NCBI GenBank assembly: GCA_016743995.1
Contig: JADGFG010000006.1
Coordinates: 1 to 49,894 of the forward strand
Length of the DNA: 49,894 bases
Origin: Kangiellaceae bacterium
GTDB taxonomy: Bacteria > Pseudomonadota > Gammaproteobacteria > Enterobacterales > Kangiellaceae
Direction: 5' to 3'
The position numbers and the translations under genes were made by a program. How positions within the stretch are numbered: the stretch's first letter is position 1; each line of letters starts with the position of its first letter. A model generated the notes under the pieces. The model did not search any database and was not told where the DNA came from. It saw only the letters and a program-made list of their open reading frames with translations. Below, in pieces: positions 30,404 to 49,510 of the stretch.

Positions 30404-30678
30404 CTAGAAGCCTGTAATATTGCTGGTGCGGTTCTGAACGCTTGATATCCGTGTCGCGCAATGTCGATATCAGTGAACTTCGGTGATTTACTTACTTAAA
30501 TTGAGCTCTACGTCTAATAACGCAATACGAGATTAAAATACCAATATTAACTAGTTCTGATTAAAAAAACTACGCATGTGTACGAGTAGTAATGACAGAC
30601 TGAATTACTTGTAGTTTAATACGTTGCTATTGATGGTTATACATAATTCATCTGACTAGAAGGAATTATGGGGTGTTT

Positions 30679-32139
30679 ATGAGTTTTCAAGAAAAACAAG
30701 CTCGATTTAAACGACTAAATAAAGAAAGTCCTGCATGGGCTTTGCTTCGAGCTGAGAATGCTCCGCATATATTAGCTTTTGTTGACGATTTATTTGCAAA
30801 TCAAAATGACATTCCTGTCGGTCGGGCCAAAGCAGCTCTAGAGGCTGAGTTAAAAAATGGCACACTGACCGGTGTGTGGGAAACTAATTCGAAAGCCACT
30901 ACCTATTTACGTAACTGGATTGATGCTGGGTGGTTACGCGAGCTCGATGATACCCTCAGTAAAACCAATGCCTGTGAGGTCGCACTCAGATTTTGCCGCT
31001 CACTTGATCACAAAGACTCAAGTATTACGGCTTCTCATCTAAGAACTGTCCAAGAGGCAGTGAGTAGACTAGCTATTGCTGTCACCCCTAATCCAGAAGA
31101 AAAAAGAGAAATGTTGGAGGTTAAGCGAAACGTTATTCAGGCTGAAATTGATGCTCTCTTAGCGGGTAATGTTAAGCCTGTAACTGGTGGTGAAGTGCGC
31201 GATGGTCTACGGGAAATTTATCAACTAGCGTCGGTATTAACCGGTGATTTTAGATTAATAGAAGATGAAATTCGACAGATGGAAAAAGATTTACGTGTCC
31301 AGATGATTGAAGAAGGCGCGTCTAAGGGTGAAGTTTTGCGAGGCTTGATTGATAAGGAGGCGTTGGTTTCAGAAACAGATGCTGGTCAGGCATTTGAGGG
31401 CTTTTTTCAGTTAATTATGAATAACAACTTAAGCGATGAATTAAGAGAACAAATCAAATTAATATTGAGTCATCCGTCATCTAAGGATATTGCTAAAGAT
31501 CAAAGAGTCTTTCTTAGTCACATGATGAGAGAGCTATCCAAAGAAACAACACAAATCATTAAAGTCAGACGTCGTATGGAAGAGAGTTTACGATATTTTA
31601 TTGACAGTGGTGCACATCTTGAAAATCAGGCAGTCAACCATTTGTTGCAAGAGTTAGAACAAGTTGCTGTACATTTTAAAGATTCAGATATCAGTCTCCG
31701 TACCTCATTAAACATAGCGCTTGAAAGCGGCAATATTACGGTCAGGTCACCAGATGGGATCAATCTCCGTATACCAGAAGATAAAATTGATACTTCAGAT
31801 GTCGTTGAAGAAGCTAACAGTTATGAGCCGAGCACAAAGATGCTAGGTTATCTTAATGCGGTGCAAATTAAAAAAGTGGCTTCCAATATGAAAAGCAACT
31901 TAATCAAACACGGACCAATGACAATTTCTGATCTCGCTAATCGAGTACCCATCAAGCAAGGATTAGAGGAATTAGTGGCCTTAATTCGTGTGGCGAAATC
32001 GGTTAATGCGACTGAATTGCCTGATACAGAAGAAGTTAGATTGACCGATCGTAATGGTGAGGCCATTAAAGCCAAGATACCTAAACTACTTGTTTCTGTT
32101 AAGCAGTTTCCAGATGATCTTGAGGAACTAGAATTATGA
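30679..32139 (+). CDS. jetA: Wadjet protein JetA (DUF3375)
   Basis: The protein is 486 residues from the ATG at 30679; a GTG at 30673 is less likely because GGGGTG serves as the ribosome site. The family start is clear: FKRLNKESPAWALLRAENAPHILAFVDDLF. The rest is mostly helical, with winged-helix-like parts near the C-terminus (SNLIKHGPMTISDLANRV). JetA is the kleisin-like subunit that bridges the JetC SMC heads. The stop overlaps the jetB start (ATGA). Wadjet as a whole traps small circular plasmids by loop extrusion and cuts them; this is well established for other Jet complexes. Confidence 0.93.
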   Translation: MSFQEKQARFKRLNKESPAWALLRAENAPHILAFVDDLFANQNDIPVGRAKAALEAELKNGTLTGVWETNSKATTYLRNWIDAGWLRELDDTLSKTNACEVALRFCRSLDHKDSSITASHLRTVQEAVSRLAIAVTPNPEEKREMLEVKRNVIQAEIDALLAGNVKPVTGGEVRDGLREIYQLASVLTGDFRLIEDEIRQMEKDLRVQMIEEGASKGEVLRGLIDKEALVSETDAGQAFEGFFQLIMNNNLSDELREQIKLILSHPSSKDIAKDQRVFLSHMMRELSKETTQIIKVRRRMEESLRYFIDSGAHLENQAVNHLLQELEQVAVHFKDSDISLRTSLNIALESGNITVRSPDGINLRIPEDKIDTSDVVEEANSYEPSTKMLGYLNAVQIKKVASNMKSNLIKHGPMTISDLANRVPIKQGLEELVALIRVAKSVNATELPDTEEVRLTDRNGEAIKAKIPKLLVSVKQFPDDLEELEL

Positions 32140-32891
32140 GTGAAGATGATAAGTCCAATGCCAGTTTTTTTGATCAACAGATTTCCCAGACAGAAGTGTT
32201 AGATGAGCCAACCGGTGAACACCATTTTGAATCTGATGAGATGACTCAAGTAGAAGCTGAAGTTGCAGAAACGGCTCGTACGGGTTATTTAGAACCGGAT
32301 GCAAGGCAAGCGCTAGTTTATATATTAAAACATGGCGTTATCCTTGCTGACCAAAAACCGGTGTTGTATGAGCATATTGTCAGGTATACCAAGGAAATCT
32401 CTCACTACTTAGCTGATTTGTATTTAAATTTATTGGTTGATGAGGCAGCCGGTGTTGCCTTAATTCTACAGCAAAAGCTCGCTGAAGAAGAGGACCATGA
32501 AGAAGATATATTCTCCTTGGTCAGTCGTCGTACTTTAACTTTATATGACACGCTGCTTTTAGTTGTATTGCGAAAACACTTTCAAGATCGCCAAGCCATA
32601 GGTGAAACCAAGATTATCATTGAGATTAGTCAAATAGAGCGGGGCCTTGTGCCTTTCTTACCACTAACGAAGTCAACTAAACGAGATCGTTCTCAATTAA
32701 ATGGCGCTCTCAAACGAATGGTCGAACGGAAAATATTAAGCCGAGTGCGCGCTGATGATGAACGATATGAAGTAACCCAAGTGATCCGTTATGTTGTTGG
32801 AGCTGAACTTTTAAGTCGGCTGTTAAAGGAGTATCAAGCGTTAGCAGAAAGTGCTGACATTGTTGAGCAGGGAGAAATGAATGAGTCATAA
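32136..32891 (+). CDS. jetB: Wadjet protein JetB (DUF4194)
   Basis: The protein has 251 residues. An acidic, flexible N-terminal tail of about 45 residues precedes the DUF4194 core (YLEPDARQALVYILKHGVIL, TLYDTLLLVVLRKHFQDRQ). The second half is winged-helix-like (RSQLNGALKRMVERKILSRVRADDERYEV). JetB is the KITE subunit that binds JetA and stabilises the SMC dimer. It overlaps jetA by 4 nt and jetC by 11 nt. Confidence 0.92.
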   Translation: MSEDDKSNASFFDQQISQTEVLDEPTGEHHFESDEMTQVEAEVAETARTGYLEPDARQALVYILKHGVILADQKPVLYEHIVRYTKEISHYLADLYLNLLVDEAAGVALILQQKLAEEEDHEEDIFSLVSRRTLTLYDTLLLVVLRKHFQDRQAIGETKIIIEISQIERGLVPFLPLTKSTKRDRSQLNGALKRMVERKILSRVRADDERYEVTQVIRYVVGAELLSRLLKEYQALAESADIVEQGEMNES

Positions 32892-35800
32892 TCCGGAGAG
32901 CTTTGAATCGTTATTTGGCGTTGATCAAATAAAATTATCCGAGTTATCGGTTTGTAACTGGGGTTCATTTCATAATATTCACACTGTGGCCATTGATCCT
33001 GATGGAACGCTTATTACTGGTGATAATGGTGCCGGTAAATCGACACTTATTGATGGACTTATGGCGTTATTGCTGCCACCAGGTAAAGCTAAGTTTAATG
33101 TGGCCGCGGCTCAGGGGGATTCTTCTGATCGTAATTTAATGTCGTATATTCGCGGTAGCTTTGGGTCGGAACAAGATGGTAATCAGACAAGTACAATGAA
33201 TAAAAGAACGGGGGCCACTTCAACGGTCCTACGGGCAGTCTATCGCTCTAATGATGGTAAGGTCATCACCTTAGCGGCAATGTTCTGGACCACTAAACCA
33301 ACGAGTAGTCTCTCCGATCTCAAGCGCATATATTTAGTTGCACAAAGAGATATTAAAATTCAGGAAATACACAAAGCTTTTGCTGACAATAACCCACGGG
33401 CTTTAAAACAGTATTTGAAGTCCGATAAAGATATTCAACCTTATGCGGATAGTTTTAATGAGTATCAGGAAGCATATTGCCGTGCGCTTCATATTGAAAA
33501 TCGAAATGCGCCGGGTTTATTAGCTAGAGCGTTGGGATTAAAGAAAATTGAAAATTTAACTTCATTGATAAGAACATTAGTATTGGAACCAAGTAACATT
33601 CGAGAAGATGCTCAAGGTGCTGTCGAAGAATTTGAAGAACTGAATAAGATTCATGACCTCTTATTGGACGCCCGTAAACGTGAAGAAACGCTCATAAAAT
33701 TACCACAAGTGAACCAACGCTATGAAATTGCAATCGCTAAAAGTGAAGCTTTAGTACAGCAAAGAGAAAACTTGAGTTATTTTATCGCGAAACAATGTTT
33801 TACTCTCCATGGTATTCGTTTAAACAAAATTTCAGAAATTATTAAGCTACATGAAGTTTTACTGCATCAGGCCAAAGAAAAAGAGAAACTGGCTCAGACA
33901 AAAATGACTCAATGTTATGCTGACTATCATGGTGCCGGTGGCGATCGCATTGATGCAATTAAAGATAATGTTGAACGCGCAAAGGAAAAGCTGGCACAGG
34001 CAACCAAAAATGCCTCGGCTTATCAAAAGATGTCTCGAGAGCTAGTGTTGAATCATGACTTAAAGCTTCAGCAATTTACCATAAATCAAAAAACGGCTAA
34101 TGACACACTCGCGCGCTCAGAAGAATTACTGGAACCGGCAATGGAAAAAGTTGGAACCTCTGCAGGTAATCTTCAAAACAAGAATACTGAATTTCAAGAA
34201 GCGAATACTGAATATCGTGAAATCAAATCCCGACCTGATTCAAATATTCCTGCTAAGTATCAGCACTTGCGAGAGGAAATCTGTTCATCGTTAGAGATCC
34301 CAAAAGATGAACTGATGTTTGTTGGGGAATTAATTGATATTAAAGAAGAGGAGAAATCCTGGCAGGGAGCAATTGAACGTGCTCTAGGGGGTATTAAGCT
34401 TACGCTTGCGGCACCAAGTCATAAATACCAACTAATTACCAAGTGGCTAAATATTCGTCATACAAGTCTTCATGTGCGGGTTCAGGTTGTCAAAAAGGTA
34501 TCAGGAACAAGTGACTTTAAAACAGATGGTTTTCTGAGGAAACTCCGTTGGCGAAATCATGCTTACAGGGAATGGACGAAGCAATTTTTAGCTTACCATG
34601 ATTTACATTGTGTCGCTGACGTTGAGGCGCTCAATAAAACGCCATACTCCATGACCCAACAAGGGTTAATGCAATTGCAACAAGGCCGTTTTGAGAAGAA
34701 AGATAATGCTCGGATTGACGATACGAAAAACTGGTATCTTGGATTTTCAAACAAATCACGATTATTGTCTCTTGAATCGTTAATGCAAGAATTGGGTGAA
34801 ACAATATCAAAACTGACCGATGAGAAGCAACTTGCGGATAAAGAATATAGAGCACTCAATGATAGGTTATTAAAATTGAGTCAATATGTTGAGTACAGCT
34901 GGTTTGAGATTGATACTAATGCGCGACAAGTCGCTGTTAAAGAGTTTCAAACAGAATTGCTTGAGCTTCAAAGTATTGGTGGTGAGCTGAATAAAGCGGA
35001 GCGATTGTATCATGAGTCTGTAGAATGTCTAGATGATTGTAAGAAGAAAGCCAGTAACGAGCAAAGAATGCTAGATACTAAAATACAAGAGCATGTGCGG
35101 TGCGGTAGTACCATTGAGGATTTAAAGCATGACGCAGAAGTTGAGATTGACACTGAGGTTGATAAGCAACTGTTCGACAAGGTGGGGCTTTTAGTCGAGG
35201 ATGATTTGAAAGTCATTGATAGAAAAAAAGATAATATTCGCCTCAAAATTGAAAAGCAGCATGACAAGTCCAGTGAAGATGTTAGGATTTGCACCAGTCA
35301 AGCGACAGGGATCATGGCAAAATTTCTGAACTCATGGAAGGCTATTGCAACTGATTGGGGAACTGATTTACGCAGTATTCCTGAGTACATGACCTATTTA
35401 GACGAATTGCAAAATGAAGGTTTACCAGGTTTTGTTGAAGAGTTTAAGCAGCGCCTGAATAAGAATTCCATTCAAACACTGGTGAATATTCGCGGAAAGA
35501 TAAGTTCTGAACGAGAAGATATTGTCGAACGTATTTCAATCATTAATGATGTCCTTGGCAAAACCGAATTTCGTCGGGGAACTTACTTAAGACTTGAGTC
35601 ACGGCGTGAAAATTGGCCGAATGTTGTATGGTTTGAAAAGAAGTTACAGATGATTATTGGTAGTGTGAATAACTATGAGCATGAAAAGCGTTTTGCACAA
35701 TTAAGAGAAGTGATTGATATCTTACAAAAGGCCAGTGATACAGCAAGCTATCAACTGCAGGATAGTCAGCGTCTTTTAGATCCGCGTCATCAAATGAGCT

Positions 35801-36249
35801 TTTCTGCGAAAGAGCTTGATAAGGAAACGGAAGAGGTCAAAGATATCTGGGATTCATCAAGCGGTAAGTCAGGCGGGGAAAAAGAATCATTTGCCGGCGT
35901 TATTGTGGCTGCTAGTTTGGCTTATGTGTTGACCCCTGATGGCTGCGATCGCCCAATTTATAGTACTGTCTTTCTGGATGAAGCATTTTCAAACACCTCT
36001 GAAAGTGTTAGTCGCCGGGTATTAGCGGTATTTAAGGAGTTAAAAATTCATGTGAACCTGATCACGCCTTATAAAAACTTAAATCTTGCTCGTGAGTCTG
36101 CTAATTCTTTAATTATTGCAGAGCGGGATAAGAACCTGCATGAGAGTCGATTGTCAGAAGTGACCTGGGAAACAATTGATGAAAAGATAAGAAATGAGCA
36201 AGAAGCTTTGATTCGTGATGAGGGGATTGTGATTGAGGAGATTACATAA
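32881..36249 (+). CDS. jetC: Wadjet protein JetC (MukB/SMC-like ATPase)
   Basis: The protein has 1122 residues. Walker A GDNGAGKS at 47-54, ABC signature region SSGKSGGEKESF at about 992-1003, Walker B VFLDEA at 1030-1035; heads are separated by two long coiled coils and a central hinge region around 480-600. It carries the MukB-type WGSF start. It is the loop-extruding motor of the complex. All catalytic motifs look intact. It overlaps jetB and shares one base with jetD (TAATG). Confidence 0.96.
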   Translation: MSHNPESFESLFGVDQIKLSELSVCNWGSFHNIHTVAIDPDGTLITGDNGAGKSTLIDGLMALLLPPGKAKFNVAAAQGDSSDRNLMSYIRGSFGSEQDGNQTSTMNKRTGATSTVLRAVYRSNDGKVITLAAMFWTTKPTSSLSDLKRIYLVAQRDIKIQEIHKAFADNNPRALKQYLKSDKDIQPYADSFNEYQEAYCRALHIENRNAPGLLARALGLKKIENLTSLIRTLVLEPSNIREDAQGAVEEFEELNKIHDLLLDARKREETLIKLPQVNQRYEIAIAKSEALVQQRENLSYFIAKQCFTLHGIRLNKISEIIKLHEVLLHQAKEKEKLAQTKMTQCYADYHGAGGDRIDAIKDNVERAKEKLAQATKNASAYQKMSRELVLNHDLKLQQFTINQKTANDTLARSEELLEPAMEKVGTSAGNLQNKNTEFQEANTEYREIKSRPDSNIPAKYQHLREEICSSLEIPKDELMFVGELIDIKEEEKSWQGAIERALGGIKLTLAAPSHKYQLITKWLNIRHTSLHVRVQVVKKVSGTSDFKTDGFLRKLRWRNHAYREWTKQFLAYHDLHCVADVEALNKTPYSMTQQGLMQLQQGRFEKKDNARIDDTKNWYLGFSNKSRLLSLESLMQELGETISKLTDEKQLADKEYRALNDRLLKLSQYVEYSWFEIDTNARQVAVKEFQTELLELQSIGGELNKAERLYHESVECLDDCKKKASNEQRMLDTKIQEHVRCGSTIEDLKHDAEVEIDTEVDKQLFDKVGLLVEDDLKVIDRKKDNIRLKIEKQHDKSSEDVRICTSQATGIMAKFLNSWKAIATDWGTDLRSIPEYMTYLDELQNEGLPGFVEEFKQRLNKNSIQTLVNIRGKISSEREDIVERISIINDVLGKTEFRRGTYLRLESRRENWPNVVWFEKKLQMIIGSVNNYEHEKRFAQLREVIDILQKASDTASYQLQDSQRLLDPRHQMSFSAKELDKETEEVKDIWDSSSGKSGGEKESFAGVIVAASLAYVLTPDGCDRPIYSTVFLDEAFSNTSESVSRRVLAVFKELKIHVNLITPYKNLNLARESANSLIIAERDKNLHESRLSEVTWETIDEKIRNEQEALIRDEGIVIEEIT

Positions 36250-37430
36250 TGGAATGGGGTTTGACACCAAAGAAGTGCCAACAAAAAGTTGAAAACTTGG
36301 AATGGGATAATAGCGCCAACTTAAGAAAACGGCTTTCTGGAGAACGTGCATTTCCAATCACTCTGTCATTGAAGTCGCCAACGAGCTCTGAAGCTTTATC
36401 CGACATCAGCCAATTTACGGATTTCGTAAAAGTGTGGCGTGATTGGCCTAATCAGCACCAGGTCGAATGGAAAAAGGTGGCTTACCGAAACAATGGTACC
36501 CATGAGGTGCCGACAAAATTAGTTTTAAATACATTTCAAGAGTTTGTTGATTTTCTCGGTCATCATGCTCAATTAAGATCGGCTTCTTGGCAACAATTAA
36601 TTGAGCCTATACTAGCGTACGATCGTTCTCTTTATCCTGTATTGGTCAAAAACCTCACAACGATTGAAAAACTGACTATCATTGATGTTAACTTACTGGT
36701 GTTAGTGTTACCGCAATTAAAAAGAGGTATAGGGAGTGACATGTATTTGCGTGCACTCCCATTGATTGGCGCAGACACCAAATTTCTTGAAGCCAACATA
36801 AAATTGTTCGAGTTGATTTTAGATCACTTAATGTGTGGTCAGGTCATGAAATGCGACGGGATTATTGGTTGGTTAGGTTGTAAAGAAAACCCTAAAGGTT
36901 TATTGAGTGTGCGGCCGTTGTGCTTGCAAACAAAAAAAGCGATGGCAGGAATCCCTTTGCTGCAAATGTACAGTCAGGACTTATATGAGTATAAGTTACC
37001 GGCGTCAAACATTCTTGTGGTTGAAAATATGCAATCTGGTTTGGCGTTACCTGAAATGGCAGATACAATCGCAGTTTTTGGTGGTGGAAGAAACCTTACT
37101 TGGATGAAAGCAAATTGGCTTAAATCAAAAAGAGTAGGGTACTGGGGTGATATTGACTCCTGGGGCTACGTACTATTAAATGACGCAAGAAGAAACTGTG
37201 CTGGTGTTGCTTCTCTAATGATGGACAAGAGCGTACTTGATGAGCATTTTGAACGAATTGTTGAGGAGAAAACACCTTATGATGGCACCCTTGGACTTCT
37301 AACTGCTCCAGAGGAAGCTGCCCTAAAGTGTTTGATGGAGAACAATGGATTTGTGGCTCGATTAGAGCAGGAAAGGCTTTCTTCAGATTATATTTCAACA
37401 CAACTTAAAAAATGGCTGTATTTCAAATAG
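36249..37430 (+). CDS. jetD: Wadjet nuclease JetD (DUF3322/DUF2220, TOPRIM)
   Basis: The protein has 393 residues. The N-terminal DUF3322 arm (MEWGLTPKKC...) binds DNA. The C-terminal TOPRIM-like domain has ILVVENMQSG with Glu at about 259 and GYWGDIDSWG with the DxD at about 301-303, so metal-binding residues are present. JetD relates to topoisomerase VI A subunits and makes the double-strand cut. Last gene of the operon; 156 bp after its stop lies the dif site. Confidence 0.94.
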   Translation: MEWGLTPKKCQQKVENLEWDNSANLRKRLSGERAFPITLSLKSPTSSEALSDISQFTDFVKVWRDWPNQHQVEWKKVAYRNNGTHEVPTKLVLNTFQEFVDFLGHHAQLRSASWQQLIEPILAYDRSLYPVLVKNLTTIEKLTIIDVNLLVLVLPQLKRGIGSDMYLRALPLIGADTKFLEANIKLFELILDHLMCGQVMKCDGIIGWLGCKENPKGLLSVRPLCLQTKKAMAGIPLLQMYSQDLYEYKLPASNILVVENMQSGLALPEMADTIAVFGGGRNLTWMKANWLKSKRVGYWGDIDSWGYVLLNDARRNCAGVASLMMDKSVLDEHFERIVEEKTPYDGTLGLLTAPEEAALKCLMENNGFVARLEQERLSSDYISTQLKKWLYFK

Positions 37431-39691: not shown

Positions 39692-39737
39692 ATAACTATA
39701 ACATCCCATAATTACAGTTATGGGATGTTATAGTTAT
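39692..39737. repeat. 46-bp hairpin (20-bp perfect inverted repeat) before the integrase
   Basis: ATAACTATAACATCCCATAA is followed by TTACAG and its exact reverse complement. The arms are perfect. It ends 49 bp before the recombinase ATG. It could be a terminator, an operator or a recombination site; no T tract follows. Confidence 0.85.
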
Positions 39738-39786: not shown

Positions 39787-40941
39787 ATGACTAAAACATT
39801 ATCAAAATATGATTTGCTGGGCGATTCGGCTGAGCGTTCTCTTGTACAGGCTCAGGTTGAACAACGTCTGGATGACTGGTTAAGAGTCACGCGGCACTCT
39901 GTTGCTGAAAATACACTAAAAGCTTACAAACGTGACTGGGAGATATTCTCTCGCTGGTGTTTTGATTCAGGAGTAAGTGCTTCTGATAATTGTAATTCTG
40001 ATAGTAAAACCATCAGACATCCTTTACCGGCATCACCGTCAACCATTATTGATTTTATTCAGTCCCAGATTGGGTATCGAGCCCCCGCTTCTATCAGGCG
40101 ATGTTTATCAACTATATCTAAAATTCATAATGCGGCAGGTGTTGTTAATCCATTGCTGGATGGTCTGGTGATCACTGCAAAAAATGAAATTGGTCGTGGC
40201 CTCAGGGATGAATTTAAAAAGCGTCCACATCATAATTATGCTGGCCAACAGCGTCAGGCCTCTGGTTTAACATGGAGTCACCTGTTAAAAATTAAAGAAT
40301 TACTGAAAGTTTCACCTTTAGTTGAAGCGACAAATTTACCCGTGGTAAAAGCTAAAGCAGTACGAAGACAAAATGGAATCTGGCTCAAAAACGCAAGGGA
40401 CCGTGCTTTAATCTTTCTCGGTTACGATACTTTATTAAGAGTGAGTGAGCTAATCTCCGTATCAGTTGAAGCTATTAATTTCGAAAACGATGGTTCAGCC
40501 ATTGTCACCATTGGTAAGCGGAAAGATAACCAGGAGGGTGAAATTGCGAATAGCTATGTTGCACCCGATACGGTTAAAGAGATAAAACGCTGGATGCTTT
40601 ATTCTGGTATCAATACAGGCCCCCTCTTCTGTTCAGTGACTAAAAGCGGAACGCTAAGGTTAGATAAAGAATTTCAGTTACCCAAACCACTCACTCGTCG
40701 AAATGTTGCTGATTTATATAAGGCAACCGCAGATAAAATTGGAGAATCGTCAGAATTATTTAGCTGTCATTCGACCAGAGTTGGCGCTACGCAAGATATG
40801 CTGGAAGAAAATATTGGTATGCTTGCAGTAAAACAAGCTGGCAGGTGGAAATCAGATCGTATGCCTTCTCAATATGCGAAAAAGGTAGAGGCCAGGCGCG
40901 GTGGTATGGCTCAGCTTTCTATGAAAAAAAATCGAACGTAA
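39787..40941 (+). CDS. Tyrosine recombinase / site-specific integrase
   Basis: The protein has 384 residues. A core-binding domain (about 24-130; SVAENTLKAYKRDWEIFSRW) precedes the catalytic domain. Active-site residues visible are Arg218 in LLRVSEL, Lys near 244-246 (GKRKDN), His328 and Arg331 in CHSTR, Trp354 in GRWKS and the nucleophile Tyr363 in PSQYAKK, so it looks active. It is longer than XerC/D and has a polar insertion around 62-80. Its location about 2 kb from dif is suggestive but it is not XerC or XerD. The 46-bp hairpin upstream may be its target or operator. Confidence 0.9.
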   Translation: MTKTLSKYDLLGDSAERSLVQAQVEQRLDDWLRVTRHSVAENTLKAYKRDWEIFSRWCFDSGVSASDNCNSDSKTIRHPLPASPSTIIDFIQSQIGYRAPASIRRCLSTISKIHNAAGVVNPLLDGLVITAKNEIGRGLRDEFKKRPHHNYAGQQRQASGLTWSHLLKIKELLKVSPLVEATNLPVVKAKAVRRQNGIWLKNARDRALIFLGYDTLLRVSELISVSVEAINFENDGSAIVTIGKRKDNQEGEIANSYVAPDTVKEIKRWMLYSGINTGPLFCSVTKSGTLRLDKEFQLPKPLTRRNVADLYKATADKIGESSELFSCHSTRVGATQDMLEENIGMLAVKQAGRWKSDRMPSQYAKKVEARRGGMAQLSMKKNRT

Positions 40942-41079: not shown

Positions 41080-41775
41080 TTAGTCCTTTTTAATATCACT
41101 TATCGCATAAGTTGCATCTTCACCTCTTTCCAGAGATGATTCCAGAGTTTTTGTTACTGCGGCCAGAAATGTACGAAAGTGAGCTTTACCCGCGTTAACT
41201 CTAAAAAAGTGCTCATCTGTTGAAGCGATTTGTTTCAATACCGCTTCATCAGCATCGCTACCGTAGGCAACGCTGACAATATCAGAAATTTCTTTGAGGT
41301 CGACTAACAATTCATCACTCACATTACTGTGTCCATCAGAAAGAAAAAAGCAAACTGGGCGAAGGTATTTATATCCTTGATCTCTCACTTGATTAAACTG
41401 ATTAACAGCCTCTATACAATGCTGAATCGCGCAATTAAAGTTTGTGCCACCTACCGCATCAAGCGGTTTGAACAGATTGTTCAAGTCCGCTGCAGCAATA
41501 CCTGAGTGGAGTAAATCTGCATTGGTATTGAAACTGACAATGGATAAAAAGTAACCATTCTTATTCTGGCTCTGGGCCAAGTCATTAATGAGTACCTCCT
41601 GAACTGAGTCATTCACATCCTTAATATTTTCACCAGCCATAGAACCACTAGTGTCTATACAGGCAATAACATGCTGCTTACAGGCTGAATTGACGCCTAA
41701 TGGCGTTTTTCGTCTTGGTTTTTTTTCCTCTACTTTGAAGTTATTTTCAAAAGGAACATTGATCATCTCGGTCAT
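41080..41775 (-). CDS. TerY-like vWA-domain protein of a TerY-P triad
   Basis: The protein has 231 residues. A von Willebrand A domain with a complete MIDAS: DTSGS at 41-45, the Thr in GGTNF and the Asp in SDGHS. No signal peptide, so it is cytoplasmic. The family belongs to tellurium-resistance (Ter) associated vWA proteins, which form a conserved triad with a PP2C phosphatase and a Ser/Thr kinase. Here the other two lie just across a divergent promoter region of about 280 bp. TerY-P triads have been reported as anti-phage systems. The MIDAS probably binds a phosphorylated partner or scaffold. Confidence 0.85.
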   Translation of the reverse strand: MTEMINVPFENNFKVEEKKPRRKTPLGVNSACKQHVIACIDTSGSMAGENIKDVNDSVQEVLINDLAQSQNKNGYFLSIVSFNTNADLLHSGIAAADLNNLFKPLDAVGGTNFNCAIQHCIEAVNQFNQVRDQGYKYLRPVCFFLSDGHSNVSDELLVDLKEISDIVSVAYGSDADEAVLKQIASTDEHFFRVNAGKAHFRTFLAAVTKTLESSLERGEDATYAISDIKKD

Positions 41776-42053
41776 TTTACAATCCTCGTCGTTGATTACA
41801 GTGACGAGAATAAATTTAACATCAGGTTAGCAATTTAACGATCCAGAAACCTGGAAATTACACATGGCATTAATTGCTTATTACCGTGTTATTTTTCAAG
41901 TATGCATGTTTTAACTGTAATAGTGAAAACCCGGTTTTACAGATTCCTGGAATGCATATGCCTTCAAAAGGTATAAGATTTGAATATTGAAGTGCAGCTT
42001 TAAATTGTTGATATCAGACAACTTTGAGTCTCAGTTACAGGAGCGTTGCCACC

Positions 42054-42221
42054 ATGAAAATTAATACAAAAAAACTAACGGTGTCAGATGAGTTTATCAA
42101 ACACTGCCTGGAAATTGGTGTTGATATAGAAAACGCAATGCTTAGTCCATCAAAAAACAACACCGATGTTCAAAAAATACTAGCAGCACTGCAGCAATTG
42201 AAAACAACCCACAATAAATAA
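42054..42221 (+). CDS. Small hypothetical protein ahead of the PP2C gene
   Basis: The protein is 55 residues from the ATG at 42054, with GGAG at 42040-42043; an upstream frame from 42024 lacks a ribosome site. It starts MKINTKKLTVSDEF and continues with a short helical pattern (FIKHCLEIGVDIENAM). It ends 23 bp before the phosphatase gene and is probably first in that operon. No known family. It is an extra component compared with the minimal three-gene triad and may be a substrate or small regulator. Confidence 0.55.
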   Translation: MKINTKKLTVSDEFIKHCLEIGVDIENAMLSPSKNNTDVQKILAALQQLKTTHNK

Positions 42222-42244
42222 ACCTGACTGGAAGGAATAAAGTT

Positions 42245-43111
42245 ATGACGACTAGAAGACAACACATCGCCACCCATAAACCCAGATTAATTTGTGCGAA
42301 ATCAAAGCGCACGACAAATAAAATGGAAGAAAAAAATATTAAATCAACAACTCGGATTTTTTCACTGAAAGGCGGTGCCTCAGAGTGTGGCCTGTACCGA
42401 GAAAAAAACGAAGATGCGGTCAGACTCGGCAGAAGCTCAGAGAATGCTACTTTTATGGTGGTGTGTGATGGTTTGGGCGGAATTGTTGGCGGTGACGAAG
42501 CTTCTCAATTTACCGCTAAAAAAATCGCAAAACTACTCATGGAACTACCAGCAAAAGTCAATGTACTTCACTACATCAGTGAGGCTATCTATAAGGTTGA
42601 AGCTGAATTTAAACGTCAGAACATTCCGGGCAGAACGACACTTATTGTTGCAGTAGTGCATGACCAGTTTCTTTATTACGCTTATATAGGTGATGGAGCG
42701 CTGAATGTTTTGTACCCTAATGGACAAATACTTCAGCTGCTTACACCTCAGCGCCCCGCTTCCGCACCCGATAATTTTCTCGATTCCAGTTTTGGCAGTG
42801 AAATTCATGGTGAGCCTGTTCTTGGCTCTCTAAAGCTCAGCGATGGCTGTGCCGTATTTGCAATGACTGATGGCGCTTCAGATTTAACTGATGGTATCTT
42901 TCCGGCAAAATTAATAGGCAAGTTTAGAACAGAACAAATTCCCCTGAAACAAATAGCCAGAGATTTTGTGATGGAATTAATCAATGCAAAAGATGATTCA
43001 GGTATACATCTACATTCTGATAATGCGAGTGCCGCTTTCATTGTTTCCTCCAGCTTAACAATGATGAAAAATCTGGGAGCCGCTTATGAAGCGCATCATC
43101 AAACTGAATAG
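42245..43111 (+). CDS. PP2C-family protein phosphatase (TerY-P triad)
   Basis: The protein has 288 residues. PP2C motifs: REKNEDAV (Asp57), VVCDGLGGIVGGDEAS with the DGxGG metal site at 75-79, AYIGDGALNVLY, FAMTDGASD and a late SDNASAAFIV with metal-binding Asp. It has a basic 40-residue N-terminal tail. It should remove phosphate from Ser/Thr, opposing the kinase encoded next; the genes overlap by 26 nt, so they are translated together. Confidence 0.9.
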   Translation: MTTRRQHIATHKPRLICAKSKRTTNKMEEKNIKSTTRIFSLKGGASECGLYREKNEDAVRLGRSSENATFMVVCDGLGGIVGGDEASQFTAKKIAKLLMELPAKVNVLHYISEAIYKVEAEFKRQNIPGRTTLIVAVVHDQFLYYAYIGDGALNVLYPNGQILQLLTPQRPASAPDNFLDSSFGSEIHGEPVLGSLKLSDGCAVFAMTDGASDLTDGIFPAKLIGKFRTEQIPLKQIARDFVMELINAKDDSGIHLHSDNASAAFIVSSSLTMMKNLGAAYEAHHQTE

Positions 43112-44357
43112 TGGTGGAGAACTTGCTTTTAATACTGATGATTTGCTCGGTGAGCCTGGTACGCAAGGAGCTGTTTACAAGACTGAGTTATTTAATCTCT
43201 CTGTGGCGGTAAAGGTCTACCACGCTAACGCATGGATAAAAATTGAAGAACGAACCCGGTATCTGGTCAAACAGCATGATGTCCAGTTGATTCCAAACTT
43301 ATGTTTACCCTTATCAATCGGACAGTGTAGCGATACCGGTGATTTTGCAGTGATCATGCCTTACGTCGATGCAATACCGTTTGACCAGTTTCTTGAAGAG
43401 GAGATGCCAGATATTGTAAAGCGCGTTGAAATGTCCATTCAATTTATGCAGTTATGTAACCTGCTAGAGGAAAAAGGCATAGCACATGGCGACCTGAGTT
43501 ACAGTAACGTGGTAGTCGACCGGGCAACTCATCAGATATATTTGATCGACCTTGATAATTTTATCTGTTGTGATAATACTATTTGTTATCCTCCCGCCTT
43601 TGGTACGTATGAACTCATAAGCCCAGAGCTACGACAGGGTTTCCATAATAACAATAATAATTGTAATCGTAATAATCATCAAACACCGATTCCAACTATT
43701 TTTAGTGAACGTTTCAGTTACGCAATTGTTCTGTCTGAACTTTTACTAAATCAACACCCCGCGGCTGATGCGAAAGATCCCGGTGATTTTTTCAATTTGA
43801 TGGTCGCCGGTGATTTTCCAACTTTTGACTCGGCGAATGAAAGATTATCGACTGAATTGTTTGAATTGTTTCATAACAGCTTTTCATTAAAAGTAGAAAA
43901 TAGACCAACTGCAAAACACTGGTTGAACACACTGTTAGTTATTGTCGCTAACCAGTCGTTGGTAATTCACAGCTGTGGAACACCGCAGTTTATTTCAAAA
44001 GAAGATGAGCTTTGTCGACATTGCGGTAATTTATTAGTTTTACAACATGGTATGACATTAGTGTTGCACGAGGGAAATGGAAACCTGAATACAATTGAGG
44101 CAGATTGCTTTGTTGGTAGAAATGATTTTATCGATTCACCGCTTACCATTAGCTCCAGGCACCTTAAATTCAGGTGTAATGGCATTGACTGGTTTATGAC
44201 ACCCGTTGGTCGAAACCAGACCGGAGCATGGACAGCGAGAGCGCTAGACTGGGTGCCGCTCGAAAATGGGAAAGAATATCGTTTAGCTAAACAATACTTC
44301 CCTCTCAAATTATGGGTTGGTGGACATAAAGCGGTCCTTGAGCAGACAGCGGTTTAA
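43086..44357 (+). CDS. Ser/Thr kinase with zinc-ribbon and FHA domain (TerY-P triad)
   Basis: The protein has 423 residues in three parts. Kinase-like domain about 20-285: AVKVYHA (Lys43), IAHGDLSYSNVVVD (Asp136, Asn141), LIDLDNF replacing DFG with Asp at 155 or 157. A small zinc-ribbon-like insert follows at 297-313 (CGTP...CRHC). The C-terminal FHA domain, about 320-415, shows CFVGRND and SSRHLKF, the canonical GR and S-x-x-H. FHA binds phosphothreonine, so the kinase may read its own or a partner's phosphorylation. An Asn-rich stretch around 188-198 is a short low-complexity loop. ATG overlaps the PP2C gene. Confidence 0.88.
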   Translation: MKRIIKLNSGGELAFNTDDLLGEPGTQGAVYKTELFNLSVAVKVYHANAWIKIEERTRYLVKQHDVQLIPNLCLPLSIGQCSDTGDFAVIMPYVDAIPFDQFLEEEMPDIVKRVEMSIQFMQLCNLLEEKGIAHGDLSYSNVVVDRATHQIYLIDLDNFICCDNTICYPPAFGTYELISPELRQGFHNNNNNCNRNNHQTPIPTIFSERFSYAIVLSELLLNQHPAADAKDPGDFFNLMVAGDFPTFDSANERLSTELFELFHNSFSLKVENRPTAKHWLNTLLVIVANQSLVIHSCGTPQFISKEDELCRHCGNLLVLQHGMTLVLHEGNGNLNTIEADCFVGRNDFIDSPLTISSRHLKFRCNGIDWFMTPVGRNQTGAWTARALDWVPLENGKEYRLAKQYFPLKLWVGGHKAVLEQTAV

Positions 44358-44359
44358 AA

Positions 44360-44383
44360 ATTCGAGTATTCGAGTATTCGAGT
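44360..44383 (+). repeat. Tandem 8-bp repeat (ATTCGAGT x3)
   Basis: Three exact copies of ATTCGAGT start 3 bp after the kinase stop. A microsatellite of no obvious function; copy-number variation could alter spacing to the next gene. Confidence 0.85.
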
Positions 44384-44405
44384 AGCCATTTTTAATATCA
44401 ATAAA

Positions 44406-44456
44406 GGTTACATAAATTGAAAGATTACATAAGTTGAAAGGTTACATAAATTGAGG
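44406..44456 (+). repeat. Tandem 17-bp repeat (x3) before the membrane protein
   Basis: Three near-identical 17-mers, each GRTTACATAARTTGARR, occupy 44406-44422, 44423-44439 and 44440-44456. The last copy ends in GAGG, which becomes part of the ribosome-binding site of the gene at 44466. They could be iterated regulator sites. Confidence 0.8.
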
Positions 44457-44465
44457 TGAATAATT

Positions 44466-45536
44466 ATGACCATAGCACTTAACAAAGCATTTAGGATACC
44501 GACAGATGAAATAACTCGAACCAATCGAATTATTTTAATGACCACAATATTTATTGTAATCATCGGGCTGTTTCCCAACTTTTATTCCTGGCAAATGACT
44601 GCTACAGGTATGCTTCTTTCTGGTTTTATACCACCGGATACAACATTGATACAGTCAGAGGGAATCACCCTCATTCTCGCGGCGGTAATTCAACTGGGAA
44701 TATTTCTACTATTTAACTTGATCCCCGTTTTATTTAAATGCACTAACATGCGATGGTGGTCAAAATCGATTTCCTTTATCGTACTGATATTCTTTTTAAG
44801 CGCGCTTATACTAGTGAGCTGGGGATATTCATTATTTTCCACTACCTTGAACTCCGTAGGTGGAGAGATAGCGCTTAATATGGAAGGTAAAGTTGAAAAT
44901 TACTTTCAATCACTTAAAAACATCGATCAGCAAATTATAGGAAATTATCAGAAACACCTGAATAATCTCACTAAAATGGCAAATCAGGCAGCGCAAGGCA
45001 AAGACGGTACAAACATCGCCAGATGTGGTTCAATATGTAATGGATTTCTCAGAAATAGATTAAGGTTGAGCCAGAAGTATCTGATTTTATCGAGTCAATC
45101 AGTGTCATCGCTTTTCTCCTACTATGAGAATAAAGCATTACCCGTAGTATTAGATGCGATTAATCAAAATGAATACCCTGACATCTTAGCAAAGGTAAAA
45201 CACTACAAACACTTCTTACTTGAAATTGGCGCAGCAGATGATATTTCTATTCAATTAGAACAACTCATTAAGCAAAAATCTGAACTGACAAAAAAAATCG
45301 ACTCCTCCAGCAGTAACCAGCAAGATTTACTGATTGATTATATTAAAGAGCAATTGAACAGATTATGGCAAGGTGATCACAGGTTTAATTCAACGCTAGT
45401 TTTTAGTCTGGTGATGGCTGTTATTCCTGATATAGTTAATTTGTCGCTGATATTTTGTATATTTATCATTATGCATATTGACGCTGCTGTTTTTGTCAAT
45501 CGAAAAAGAAAGATTCAAGTTGCTATTAATCCATAA
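44466..45536 (+). CDS. Four-TM membrane protein with coiled-coil extracytoplasmic loop
   Basis: The protein has 356 residues. Hydrophobic spans at about 24-44, 65-88, 100-122 and 312-340, with a large central region (about 125-310) that is helical and coiled-coil-like and contains a Cys pair (ARCGSIC). The C-terminus is basic. No enzymatic motif. It follows the kinase gene by about 110 bp including tandem repeats and GAGGTG before the ATG, so it may be co-transcribed with the triad. Plausible role: the membrane sensor or effector of the phosphorylation module. This is inference from position. Confidence 0.65.
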   Translation: MTIALNKAFRIPTDEITRTNRIILMTTIFIVIIGLFPNFYSWQMTATGMLLSGFIPPDTTLIQSEGITLILAAVIQLGIFLLFNLIPVLFKCTNMRWWSKSISFIVLIFFLSALILVSWGYSLFSTTLNSVGGEIALNMEGKVENYFQSLKNIDQQIIGNYQKHLNNLTKMANQAAQGKDGTNIARCGSICNGFLRNRLRLSQKYLILSSQSVSSLFSYYENKALPVVLDAINQNEYPDILAKVKHYKHFLLEIGAADDISIQLEQLIKQKSELTKKIDSSSSNQQDLLIDYIKEQLNRLWQGDHRFNSTLVFSLVMAVIPDIVNLSLIFCIFIIMHIDAAVFVNRKRKIQVAINP

Positions 45537-46017
45537 AATAGTTTTGTTATACGTCGAAAAGCACAAGGTATCTGCTATAGCGAATGAAGAAAAATATCAG
45601 TATTGAACTTATCCTTTTCTTTACCGCAAACAAATAGTTGAAGCAGCACTTAAATCAGAACTTGTTCTTATAGAATAAATGTGCACTACAACTGTAAGTC
45701 TCTTTTATCTAGCCAGCAAATAATTCAGTCAATAAAACTTGTCGTCACACAATTAAACCGCCCTGCCTTAGTCGTAATACTGGCCAATTTGTCATAAAAG
45801 CATTGATTATTAAACAAGAGAACCGTTTACTTATATTGATTGTTTCTTGTTAACTCTGGCTTTTTGAAATACGGAATATGCGGTGATATTGCTAATGTCT
45901 GTATGTGCGAGCTATCTCAAAGGTAAGCGTAGAAGACTTTTGATATTGAGTTAACTCGCGTATTCTGTCAAGTACTGCATACACCAATAGCGATAACAAG
46001 TCATTGTATTAATAGTA
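45537..46017. other. Intergenic gap between convergent genes
   Basis: About 480 bases with stops in all frames and no strong hairpin or repeat. Nothing is recognised. Confidence 0.5.
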
Positions 46018-47727
46018 CTATATTCTTATTTTTGACAAGCCCTTGATAACCATCCGGGTTAGTTTTTTTAACAAAGGTACCTTATGTTCATTACTGCTAT
46101 TGAAGCTTTTGACGGGTAAATCATTATAATAGTTTAAGCGTTTTAATTTTAAAGGTCGCGAACCACTCAGGTCTACAATAATATTACCCCGTTCAAAATT
46201 AAGAAAACGTTTAACCTGTTCAGGATCCATCACGTGAGACTCTTCAAATATTTTCTCGTTGTTCTTGTCTTTTGTTTTTATGCGACACTTACCTAAGCGT
46301 CTTGAAACTGTTTCTATCGTCCCTTCGTGATTGCCAGGCATATAAATAATTGCATCTGCATTTCCAGAAAAGCCATCAGCAGTCTTATTGTAAACAGCAT
46401 CAAGACCACCACGATCCTGCACCACATACACTGCGAGAATTCCATAACCACGCATCAGCGGCGCACTGGTTTCAATATATTCGTTATATCCTTGTGATTG
46501 AAACTCGTCGATAGCAAATAAACAGGGAATCTTTTTATTACCAGGAATTGACTCAAATGTATAAGTTATCAAATTGGTCAATAATCTGCTGAATCCAGAA
46601 AGCTCCAGCTTGATTGAGGTTGCCGGTGCGACAAAAGAGAGATAAACATCATCTTTATATTTTAACTCTTCACATAAAAAGGTTGATTTTCCCTTTAAGA
46701 TGGGTAGCATATCAGGATATCCCAACCACTCTAACTGGCCCTGTGCAGTTGTTAAAACATTACCTCGCGTAGCTGGATTTTCACGCAAAATAGTTGACGC
46801 CTGTTTGGCAATAAATCCGTTGTACGCCGGATTTTTTTCCATGATGCGTAACAGAGTTATAATCGGATCATCTTTACCGCCTCCTTTGCTCTTATCAGGC
46901 TTAATCCACCAGTAGCCTCTGCACAGAAGGTCATAACAGGTTATCAAATCATGATCTTGTGGTTTGTGAGCTGTGTAAACATGCAATATTATTGCCTTCC
47001 ATAAATTACGGGCATGGACAGTAAATATTGGATTCTTCTCCCCCTCTTCCTTTTTGATTAAAGCTTCTGCTATTTTAACGGCTACTCGAACAGCAACGTC
47101 TTTGTTACCCACACGTTTTTCAGCAGCTTTCATTTCATCAAACACATTCCAGATAACATTATTCAGGTTTGAATCATAAGGCGCAATAATATGTAACGTT
47201 TTTTTAAGTAACCCTTTAAGAATACGAGTGATTTCTCCTTTGGGATCAATATAAAACGCACTCGATGACCAGCAGGATAACACTAATGTAAGGTAAGCGC
47301 TTTTCCCTGAACCTGTTTGACCTAACAGGACAATATGCCTTTTTATATTGATTCCCACTGGCATCAACCAGCCAATTCCAAAGATCATTAATCGCCCAAT
47401 TGGAAAATAGGATGGCCGGTACATTAATGTACAGGTAAAAAGAGGATGAAGAAATCCACCCGACGCGCCTTTTCCAAACACAAAAACTTCCTGCCACCAT
47501 TCAGAAATTTTCATCCAGCCTCTAACTACAACACGCCAGGGTATTATATTTGGCCAGCGGCTAAACTGGTTAATATGATACAACCCTGAAAGTCGAGCTA
47601 TTCCCAGTACTAGTGAACGCAACATACTTATGCCGAAAGCGATGTCGAGATAGATAATCACTGCATAAAAAGGGTCTATTGATTGAACTAAATCAACCAG
47701 TCGCTGTAGTATTTGTTCCAGGTTCAT
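46018..47727 (-). CDS. Orphan VirD4/TraG-type coupling ATPase
   Basis: The protein has 569 residues. N-terminal membrane spans at about 18-45 and 108-127 match a type IV coupling protein. Walker A GQTGSGKS at 136-143, FYIDPKGE at 158-165 (a VirD4 hallmark), Walker B LFAIDE at 403-408, then YVVQDRGGL. Both ATPase motifs are intact. No relaxase, pilus or mating-pair genes are in view, so classical conjugation seems unlikely from this locus. It follows the Asn/Gln-rich gene by 39 bp. It may use the fold to move DNA or proteins for the neighbouring system. Confidence 0.87.
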   Translation of the reverse strand: MNLEQILQRLVDLVQSIDPFYAVIIYLDIAFGISMLRSLVLGIARLSGLYHINQFSRWPNIIPWRVVVRGWMKISEWWQEVFVFGKGASGGFLHPLFTCTLMYRPSYFPIGRLMIFGIGWLMPVGINIKRHIVLLGQTGSGKSAYLTLVLSCWSSSAFYIDPKGEITRILKGLLKKTLHIIAPYDSNLNNVIWNVFDEMKAAEKRVGNKDVAVRVAVKIAEALIKKEEGEKNPIFTVHARNLWKAIILHVYTAHKPQDHDLITCYDLLCRGYWWIKPDKSKGGGKDDPIITLLRIMEKNPAYNGFIAKQASTILRENPATRGNVLTTAQGQLEWLGYPDMLPILKGKSTFLCEELKYKDDVYLSFVAPATSIKLELSGFSRLLTNLITYTFESIPGNKKIPCLFAIDEFQSQGYNEYIETSAPLMRGYGILAVYVVQDRGGLDAVYNKTADGFSGNADAIIYMPGNHEGTIETVSRRLGKCRIKTKDKNNEKIFEESHVMDPEQVKRFLNFERGNIIVDLSGSRPLKLKRLNYYNDLPVKSFNSSNEHKVPLLKKLTRMVIKGLSKIRI

Positions 47728-47765
47728 TTTCTTTCCCCCATTTTACCCAGGTATAATCTACCGTA

Positions 47766-48377
47766 TTAATCCAGATTGAGATCGATGCCAACTTCCTGAT
47801 TCATTGTCACCTCACTTTCACTCATGATAATATTTTTATTAGTGATATTATTTTCATGAGTGATAGAATTTTCATTAGTTACAATATTTTCAATCAGCTC
47901 ATTTTCCTCCCCTTGTGCTATTGAAAGTTCTGTTTGTTGATTGATATCTGCCTGCTGATAAAGGTCATTTTGTAAAGCGTCTTGAAGGACTTCATTGTGA
48001 TTATCAATAATCGTCCCATTGGGCATAGCAATTGCCTGCTCAACTCTTTCCTCTCTGGCATGCTGGTATTGCTGCGACATATCCTGAACCGATTGAGCAC
48101 ATAATATTCCGCCGAGCATTAATGCATTGATTGCATCCTCCTGATGTAGTTGAGTCGGTTGTTGCAACTCATTAAAATTATTTTCTGTACCGACTACGGC
48201 CACATTATGATTTAAGTCATGCTGAATCTCGTTAAGTTTTTCTACGGCTTCACTGCGACTATGTTCTGTTGATGCGCGTTGCATCGAATTTTCCATTTCA
48301 GTTTGCAGTGCATATTCACGTTTATCTTCGAGCGTACAATCGAGTGACTGGTTGCTGGTGTTTGTATCATCGTTCAT
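47766..48377 (-). CDS. Asn/Gln/Glu-rich hypothetical protein with hexapeptide repeats
   Basis: The protein has 203 residues, acidic and polar, with no signal or clear membrane segment apart from a short ALMLGGILCAQSV. The C-terminal part contains four hexapeptide-like units (NIVTNE, NSITHE, NNITNK, NIIMSE), matching an 18-bp tandem at about 47822-47900. Overall disorder is likely. It is located directly upstream of the VirD4-like gene with 38 bp between them, so it may be a substrate, adaptor or scaffold of that ATPase. No family recognised. Confidence 0.6.
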   Translation of the reverse strand: MNDDTNTSNQSLDCTLEDKREYALQTEMENSMQRASTEHSRSEAVEKLNEIQHDLNHNVAVVGTENNFNELQQPTQLHQEDAINALMLGGILCAQSVQDMSQQYQHAREERVEQAIAMPNGTIIDNHNEVLQDALQNDLYQQADINQQTELSIAQGEENELIENIVTNENSITHENNITNKNIIMSESEVTMNQEVGIDLNLD

Positions 48378-48523
48378 GGAAACTACCTCTATTGTCTGGT
48401 TAATTCAGATAGACAATAGCAGTGTTGAACCGATGAACAAATCCAATAAATTGGAAGATTTGAGTTTCAGAAAGAATTGAAAAATTAAATAGTTACTATT
48501 ATTGGAGGTAAGAATTTCCTATA

Positions 48524-49510
48524 TCAATCTATATCCACGACTTCATAATAAACAGTTGCAGCCCCAAAATTAAACGTTGAAGCTTCTGACGTCCTCTTGA
48601 CCTCTCTACTGTAGCATTCAACCAGGTTATACAGATCACTTCGTGTCAAAAAATAGCATTTTTGAGCGGTATCCAGGCTCGCTAGATTATCAAATTGAAT
48701 AAATGGCTTTTTCAGCATGAGAAAATATAACTGTTGTGCGCCACTAAAATAAGCTTGTAATCTGGGTGATAAGATTAATCGATCATCTTCGGGGTTAATC
48801 TGATAATGATCGTGCTGGTCTTGTTCATTGACTATGAGTACACCATGATATTGTTTGTCTTCTTCATAAATTGCAAAGCCGCCGGGTATTGCACAAAATA
48901 GCGCTGAATAATATTCGCCAGCCGAGACCGTGTCAGGTAGATCGATACCTACGGTAAATTGTTCACCCTTTTTGTAGGTCGGCACCGGTGGGTTATCAGC
49001 GGTATCAATCGTATCGCCTACATTTAGCATTCGAAAAGAACTAGTTGATAGTGAGTAGATATTCAGTTTACCAAGATTGTTCAGTAGCTTAGAGTTTAAT
49101 TTTGATAAAGCGGTGGCATCTTCAAAGCTCCAGCCCAGCAGCACTTTAAGATCGGCATAGGAAGCGTTTACCAACTGGTTTAATGTGAGAGTAATGCTTT
49201 TTTCTTCTGCTAAAAACTGAAGAAACTGATCAATTTCGTCACGGGTAAAGGGAATTGGAGCTTTGCTTAAGAATGGATTTCGTAGTACTTCATTGAACAA
49301 GCGGTCGTGTTTACTCCAGTACATTTTGTTGTTTCTGGATAAATCTAAAGTGCCATCACCATCACATAATTCTGGATAGATAGCCAGTAATAATCGAGTT
49401 TTATTATCTTTGTCTATTCCGAGCGTATCGAGTATCAACTTCATTTTTTCATGTTTTTCTTCAATACTTCTGAAATAAACTTTTTTATCATCGTAAAGTA
49501 TACTTGACAT
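48524..49510 (-). CDS. Uncharacterised 328-aa protein, possible DUF4384-like domain
   Basis: The N-terminal half (to about 150) is helical and charged. Residues from about 168 to 285 look like an all-beta domain: TYKKGEQFTVGIDLP, GEYYSALFCAIPGGFAIY, RLILSPRLQAYFSG and QLYFLMLKKPF. This order (Gly then hydrophobic strand, P-x-strand, G-x-Q-x-L late strand, pf) resembles DUF4384 ligand or peptidoglycan-associated domains, but the match is by eye. No signal peptide. It is first of three minus-strand genes facing the TerY-P triad. Function unknown. Confidence 0.55.
   Translation of the reverse strand: MSSILYDDKKVYFRSIEEKHEKMKLILDTLGIDKDNKTRLLLAIYPELCDGDGTLDLSRNNKMYWSKHDRLFNEVLRNPFLSKAPIPFTRDEIDQFLQFLAEEKSITLTLNQLVNASYADLKVLLGWSFEDATALSKLNSKLLNNLGKLNIYSLSTSSFRMLNVGDTIDTADNPPVPTYKKGEQFTVGIDLPDTVSAGEYYSALFCAIPGGFAIYEEDKQYHGVLIVNEQDQHDHYQINPEDDRLILSPRLQAYFSGAQQLYFLMLKKPFIQFDNLASLDTAQKCYFLTRSDLYNLVECYSREVKRTSEASTFNFGAATVYYEVVDID

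Follow-up and report, generated by a model that had tools for sequence, protein, structure and literature searches.

A TerY-P-type triad facing a VirD4-type ATPase operon in a Kangiellaceae genome: one phosphorylation-controlled system or two neighbours

In the threonine-phosphorylation pathway of type VI secretion systems (T6SS), PpkA, PppA and Fha place a secretion machine under the control of a kinase, a PP2C-type phosphatase and an FHA protein. A related set of parts is the TerY-P triad, defined in PMC11090510 (after Anantharaman et al. 2012) as a TerY-like vWA protein, a PP2C-like enzyme and a serine/threonine kinase with a C-terminal zinc ribbon; the same paper describes type III-A CoCoNuTs in which such triads stand beside EssC-like, SpoVK-like and EccE3/VirB4-like ATPases. 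In PMC4978471, a Helicobacter pylori TerY-P cluster lies beside WXG100/FtsK in a genomic island, and the VirD4 discussed there belongs to separate conjugative elements. Here we analyze a locus of a Kangiellaceae bacterium (assembly GCA_016743995.1, contig JADGFG010000006.1, positions 41080-49510) in which a complete TerY-P-type trio faces an operon encoding a VirD4-type coupling ATPase. The window, that is, the whole stretch of 49,894 nt under analysis, ends where the contig ends (49894), so the locus may continue past it.

The triad and the VirD4 operon may form one phosphorylation-controlled system, a reading that we hold to be almost evenly balanced, because a shared-contig listing speaks for it and readable relatives of each half without the other speak against it. 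The favourable evidence comes from one protein of each set, the four-transmembrane (4-TM) protein on the triad side and a 328-aa protein on the ATPase side. A search of ~5.8 billion clustered proteins returned, at its level of sensitivity, a single foreign homologue for each (P0004 at 59% and P0002 at 56%, respectively). Both homologues are listed with source lgn, one contig and a longest contig of 5,674 bp, and, judged from this listing alone, they probably sit on one contig of that length. In the window, the layout from the 4-TM gene to the 328-aa gene spans 5,045 bp and would place a VirD4 gene on the 5,674-bp contig. If P0002 and P0004 do share a contig, this layout of facing genes, or a similar one, would be conserved across 40% protein divergence. 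Furthermore, in the three of four VirD4-clade loci that are long enough (L006, L007 and L009, described below), the VirD4 gene is followed by a 4-TM gene and a vWA-like gene, part-types that the triad side of the window also supplies. The initial annotation had linked the two sets from proximity only; the P0002/P0004 listing, with its common source and length, adds one indirect support beyond proximity, whereas co-occurrence in readable loci adds none.

Several observations weigh against a single unit. The two sets are convergent and do not make up one operon, and no readable locus except the window carries both halves. The comparison of neighbourhoods suggested in the initial annotation did not bear out co-occurrence in the readable loci (open reading frames (ORFs) of >= 60 aa, E <= 0.01): the window vWA, PP2C and kinase queries found nothing in any of the four VirD4-clade loci, and the VirD4 query found nothing in any of the five readable loci of the nearest triads, 18-20 kb each. 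The silence of the PP2C query is weak evidence, since this query also fails to detect the PP2C genes known to be present in those five triads. The 5,674-bp contig is known from the listing alone, and P0005, the nearest VirD4 homologue, is listed with a different contig of 5,579 bp, whose gene arrangement may thus be another one. The window 4-TM and vWA proteins are without detectable sequence similarity to those of the relatives in hhalign comparisons of low power, and the long segment of the 4-TM protein separates TM3 from TM4 in the window but follows TM4 in the relatives. The FHA call on the kinase tail, which enters the proposed mechanism, is also weak (E 0.025, no Pfam match).

Alternatively, the two halves may be unrelated neighbours, a divergent TerY-P triad and a separate VirD4 mobile-element cassette that face each other by chance in a defence or mobile island. 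Each half occurs alone in readable relatives, the orientation is convergent with a 481-bp gap between the plus-strand set and the ATPase-side set, and the nearby Wadjet genes and recombinase suggest an accretion-prone region. What such a chance encounter fits poorly is that the 4-TM and 328-aa homologues appear to share a contig elsewhere, neither protein having another foreign homologue among the ~5.8 billion proteins at the sensitivity used. We treat chance proximity as a substantial alternative, though a somewhat doubtful one.

By their Pfam domains and motifs the vWA, PP2C and kinase genes are a TerY-P triad as defined in the literature, as the initial annotation had recognized. Pfam matches over cut-off were obtained for these three genes and for the VirD4 gene. 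The metal ion-dependent adhesion site (MIDAS) of the vWA protein is complete (D41TSGS, T111, D147), the acidic, metal-binding motifs of the PP2C protein are intact, and the kinase carries AVK41-43, HGDLSYSN134 and IDLD154. The zinc ribbon of the kinase comprises C297, C310 and C313, with a PF13248 match at 0.0087, under the cut-off of that model. The ribbon is followed by a tail of ~100 residues with a GR...SSRH pattern (GR344, SSRH356). The tail had no match in Pfam; against PDB sequences up to E 10 seven entries were listed, namely five of GarA/Rv1827, one of Mb1858 (uncharacterised) and one of ORF067, the best being GarA, an FHA protein. The tail is therefore best described as likely FHA-like. 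The window trio shares with TerY-P triads the vWA, PP2C and zinc-ribbon kinase components with all catalytic motifs, but differs in the likely FHA-like kinase tail and in a short vWA protein (231 aa) without the TerY_C domain carried by the G087 and G136 triads. Compared with the T6SS pathway, it shares the logic of kinase, PP2C and FHA, with a likely kinase-FHA fusion in place of a separate Fha.

Sequence searches indicate that kinases of this form are uncommon. The kinase query matched three of 149 relatives' genomes at E <= 1e-8, the source genome included, the others being G087 and G136; at E <= 1e-10 it matched one of 369 genomes of the class, which is the source genome. The best match among the 149 relatives' genomes reached 34% over 110 aa. 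Both the G087 and G136 loci have vWA genes (one with TerY_C per locus) and PP2C genes beside the kinase, and TerD also occurs in G136. Annotated vWA, PP2C and TerD genes likewise adjoin three plasmid kinase matches, from Hymenobacter, Polaromonas and Azospirillum. Of the TerD, TerB and TerC neighbours of a canonical tellurite-type Ter locus, or any other Ter family, none was found in a Pfam scan of 20 window proteins, the other window ORFs being read by eye up to the contig stop at 49894.

The ATPase is assigned by sequence to the VirD4 or type IV coupling protein (T4CP) family on account of its T4SS-DNA_transf domain, intact Walker A (GQTGSGKS) and Walker B (LFAIDE) motifs and an N-terminal membrane part with hydrophobic segments at 17-36 and 108-126 (hydropathy). 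Its description as an orphan coupling ATPase of type IV secretion systems (T4SS) stands. In the source genome, which is 98.9% complete, the window ATPase is the one PF02534 protein over the cut-off, a second match of 16 bits being sub-cut-off. No match was obtained there for the MOBP-type relaxase family PF03432 (found in one of 14 control genomes; other relaxase families were not searched), for VirB4 (PF03135, one of 14) or for VirB10/TrbI (PF03743, two of 14). The possibility that the gene is part of a local T4SS was rejected on this ground.

A protein search with VirD4, which scored the 7,995 candidates sharing most words, returned at least 57 homologues, of which eight (P0005-P0012) show 36-68% identity and the rest <= 28%. 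A maximum-likelihood tree was built from 16 of these 57 matches, the window protein, L006, L007, L010 and L011, leaving out L008 as a near-copy and L009 for its broken VirD4 frame; alignment A4 consists of eight of the ten rows of A3, P0012 (truncated) and P0013 being dropped. The window ATPase pairs with P0005 (support 100/100) within a ten-row clade (100/100) that comprises these two, P0006-P0011 and two Nitrosomonas proteins. At E <= 1e-20 the VirD4 profile matched 4 of 369 genomes from the class and 28 of 398 from the phylum. Both counts include the source genome, and the best other matches reached 145 and 135 bits compared to 913 for the own gene, so none was counted as close kin; among the 149 relatives at E <= 0.001, the source genome and two weak matches were found. 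The plasmid search with VirD4 gave 730 records, all below 60% identity, the 20 listed being at 22-27%. Near the T4CP genes of two matching plasmids (H13 and H14) MobC and a relaxase are annotated, and a third (H9) has mostly hypothetical genes. Three small plasmids of 16-39 kb (L010, L011 and L064) have a VirD4-like gene of their own, with annotated MobC and relaxase in L010 and L011. No plasmid-borne relatives were found for the 328-aa and 4-TM proteins or for the Alteromonas 4-TM and vWA-like proteins. A phage-borne locus was also rejected: the 328-aa protein had no match among phage records, and scans of viral contigs revealed no relative of the VirD4, 4-TM, kinase and 328-aa queries or of the L006/L009 4-TM and vWA-like queries.

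Readable relatives of the ATPase were found by a genome-contig scan that reports only contigs in which either of two short peptide patterns is matched exactly and thus gives a lower bound. At least four VirD4-clade loci were detected, L006 and L007 in Nitrosomonas metagenome-assembled genomes (MAGs), L008 in an uncultured betaproteobacterium (5.3 kb, ending inside the 4-TM gene) and L009 in Alteromonas sp. a30. L006 and L008 share 91% identity across 5.3 kb, and the four loci therefore represent two lineages. The VirD4 of L009 is 37% identical to the window protein by tblastn, and its frame is broken into two ORFs. In L006, L007 and L009 the gene order is a small TM protein, VirD4, a ~100-aa protein, a 304-326-aa protein, a 207-213-aa protein with a DxSxS motif, small proteins and a serine recombinase. 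The 304-326-aa protein has four hydrophobic segments (hydropathy, L006 and L009). We read the 207-213-aa protein as vWA-like from its DxSxS and TDG motifs; it has no Pfam vWA match and is not found by the window vWA query. A signal-like N-terminus suggests that it may be exported, and of the two proteins tested (L006 and L009) the hydropathy threshold was passed by L006 only. As homologues of the window 4-TM and vWA proteins the L006/L009 ones were rejected as undetectable, with hhalign probabilities of 0.3 and 0.2% from profiles of 1-2 sequences and hence of low power. A family of small proteins (62-90 aa) recurs near VirD4-type genes of different kinds (L020 7754-7942, L006 13793-14059, L009 9905-10177).

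Like the window, these cassettes combine an ATPase of this clade with a 4-TM and a vWA-like protein, but their vWA-like protein has a signal-like N-terminus, a serine recombinase is present, the Alteromonas copy also has a relaxase, and no kinase or PP2C was found. The Pfam scans covered a portion of every relative locus (25 proteins from L006 and L009, nine from L021 and L022), and the only kinase-type match among the 25 was a RIO kinase in the L006 flank. The window kinase query found nothing in the four whole genomes at E <= 0.001, in a search without a positive control. L006 and L007 have in common one block of 10,920 bp at 93.8% identity (L006 5375-16283, L007 5435-16341), which holds a Fic protein, VirD4, the 4-TM and vWA-like proteins and the serine recombinase (PF00239 2.9e-25), and in which neither a relaxase nor a mating pore was recognised. 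Apart from one further match of 436 bp, BLAST found nothing else alike in these two loci. Such almost wholly different flanks around a like block argue that the cassette moves as a unit.

This mobility bears on a further explanation, in which the VirD4 operon, perhaps with the tyrosine recombinase at 39787-40941, serves to mobilise an integrative mobilizable element through the mating pore of another element, with the triad as cargo or transfer regulator. It is compatible with either one system or two neighbours. Besides the Nitrosomonas block and its serine recombinase, the Alteromonas cassette fits this explanation with MobC (PF05713 7.7e-08) and a relaxase (PF03432 1.4e-17) before the serine recombinase, as does the tyrosine recombinase that adjoins the locus in the window. 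It is opposed by the lack of a MOBP relaxase of the family searched in the source genome and of a convincing att-like repeat pair in the repeat analysis, and the end of the element would lie beyond view, past the contig stop. Overall, we find a mobilisation module rather unlikely.

The initial annotation did not recognise the locus as a described system. Its general idea, a triad beside a secretion ATPase of the FtsK/HerA superfamily (EssC-like, VirB4-like), is already described in PMC11090510 and PMC4978471; the VirD4-type partner is what we did not find beside a TerY-P triad in the open-licence PubMed Central (PMC) literature searched. Besides the H. pylori study, the papers retrieved as naming both TerY and VirD4 were two on colistin resistance genes. 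Among the titles and abstracts listed, only the H. pylori and CoCoNuT papers described a triad adjoining an ATPase of this kind, and PMC10853773 and PMC5704250 contributed no decisive point. With the CoCoNuT extensions the window shares a TerY-P triad beside a ring ATPase, one CoCoNuT variant having a VirB4-type domain, but its ATPase is of the VirD4 type with 4-TM, Asn/Gln-rich and 328-aa partners. Pfam scanning of 20 window proteins gave no McrB- or McrC-type match, the sequence beyond 49894 being unseen. The H. pylori island likewise places a triad close to an ATPase of secretion type, but there the ATPase is of the FtsK or type VII secretion system type and is accompanied by WXG100 partners and by type IV restriction genes. 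By analogy with the proposal for EssC-like ATPases beside TerY-P triads (PMC11090510), the window ATPase could export the Asn/Gln-rich or the 328-aa product as an effector, and a small acidic Asn/Gln-rich gene does stand directly 5' of the ATPase gene. However, no secretion-channel partner was identified, searches of domain libraries gave no effector-type domain for either protein, and the 328-aa structural model is too poor to judge. Effector export is, in our estimate, very improbable.

The eight ORFs of the locus all lie at the positions first assigned to them (Table 1), with catalytic motifs intact. The PP2C and kinase genes overlap by 26 bp. Gene spacing suggests that both promoters likely lie in the 278-bp divergent region, and the three motif copies 5' of the 4-TM gene are a possible operator. 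The 55-aa ORF is preceded by GGAG and has no family in the Pfam scan, and in the codon-usage check three of its five other frames score higher. This check is weak, as three larger genes (kinase, 4-TM and Asn/Gln-rich) are also each beaten by another of their frames; despite these scores the kinase and 4-TM genes have domain or homologue backing, whereas the 55-aa ORF and the Asn/Gln-rich gene have none. The Asn/Gln-rich protein has no Pfam family above cut-off. It had been called a repeat protein as well; the composition agrees, and no ungapped repeat family of its own was found. The 328-aa protein has no family match in Pfam and the other domain libraries searched, PHROG included. AlphaFold2 models from two-row alignments had a mean predicted local distance difference test (pLDDT) score of 44 for the 328-aa protein and 41 for the 4-TM protein, and Foldseek with the former returned nothing under E 0.001.

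Table 1. Coordinates of the locus and of neighbouring features in the window
Feature	Position	Strand	Basis or remark
Type I Wadjet system, complete (JetA1, JetB1, JetC1, JetD1)	30673-37430		Defence-model matches; upstream of the locus
Tyrosine recombinase, 384 aa	39787-40941	+	PF00589 1.8e-14; phrog_1 integrase 4.3e-17
TerY-like vWA protein, 231 aa	41080-41775	-	PF00092 5.5e-11; full MIDAS; no TM segment by hydropathy
Divergent intergenic region, 278 bp, between vWA gene and plus-strand set	41776-42053	.	Gene spacing
55-aa ORF	42054-42221	+	Coding status uncertain
PP2C-type phosphatase, 288 aa	42245-43111	+	PF13672 (PP2C_2) 3.5e-13; NEDA, DGLGG, TDG, DN motifs
Serine/threonine-type kinase, 423 aa	43086-44357	+	PF07714 (PK_Tyr_Ser-Thr) 4.5e-09; C-terminal zinc-ribbon Cys set, likely FHA-like tail
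18-nt motif, three tandem copies, 17-nt step	44403-44454	+	Repeat family D1, just 5' of 4-TM gene
4-TM protein, 356 aa, long stretch between TM3 and TM4	44466-45536	+	Hydropathy; one foreign homologue
VirD4-type coupling ATPase, 569 aa	46018-47727	-	PF02534 (T4SS-DNA_transf) 9.9e-31; PF12696 4.7e-14; tree
Acidic Asn/Gln-rich protein, 203 aa	47766-48377	-	23.6% N+Q, 18.7% D+E
328-aa protein, no TM segment (hydropathy)	48524-49510	-	One foreign homologue

Between the Wadjet system and the triad lie a CAAX-protease-like gene, a LytTR gene and the tyrosine recombinase, and these genes together with Wadjet favour a defence or mobile-island setting. We infer that the recombinase may belong to the same element as the locus. 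A perfect 20-nt inverted repeat with a 6-nt loop, probably a terminator, is located between the LytTR gene and the recombinase (39692-39737). Other features were noted further upstream. A YhaV-type toxin domain (1.4e-56) is encoded ~1 kb before the Wadjet genes (29152-29628), a 157-aa protein (6871-7344) matches the CARF part alone of Csx1/Can-type models with no nuclease domain in the ORF, and a 344-aa protein (2132-3166) has a RelA_SpoT domain (4.5e-16) and matches the candidate defence model PDC-S33. A genus comparison with the TonB receptor, meant to bound the island, gave only 38-42% homologues, in five of six other genomes.

If the triad and the VirD4 operon do act as one system, they would together form a phospho-switch that turns an inner-membrane ATPase on or off. 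As family knowledge suggests, the kinase and phosphatase would control how far one or several partner proteins are phosphorylated, and the vWA protein and the FHA-like tail would dock the phosphorylated partner. The 4-TM protein may anchor or gate the ATPase ring at the inner membrane, where the ATPase would move or hold DNA (or a protein), incoming DNA being a first guess for the cargo. Given the complete type I Wadjet system upstream, the response may be related to defence or stress. In its most specific form, this scheme would be a phosphorylation-gated DNA pump independent of any secretion system. A VirD4 ring taken over from mobile elements would be held in place by a dedicated 4-TM protein, switched by vWA, PP2C and kinase-FHA, and would seize incoming DNA at the inner membrane or drive it out; we consider this form unlikely.

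This work also brought to light a small group of related VirD4-type ATPases whose genes recur in a cassette with 4-TM and vWA-like proteins beside serine recombinases. If the two halves of the Kangiellaceae locus are one system, the TerY-P signalling theme would extend to the coupling ATPases of conjugation, and the locus would provide a testable case of Ser/Thr phosphorylation governing a DNA pump.

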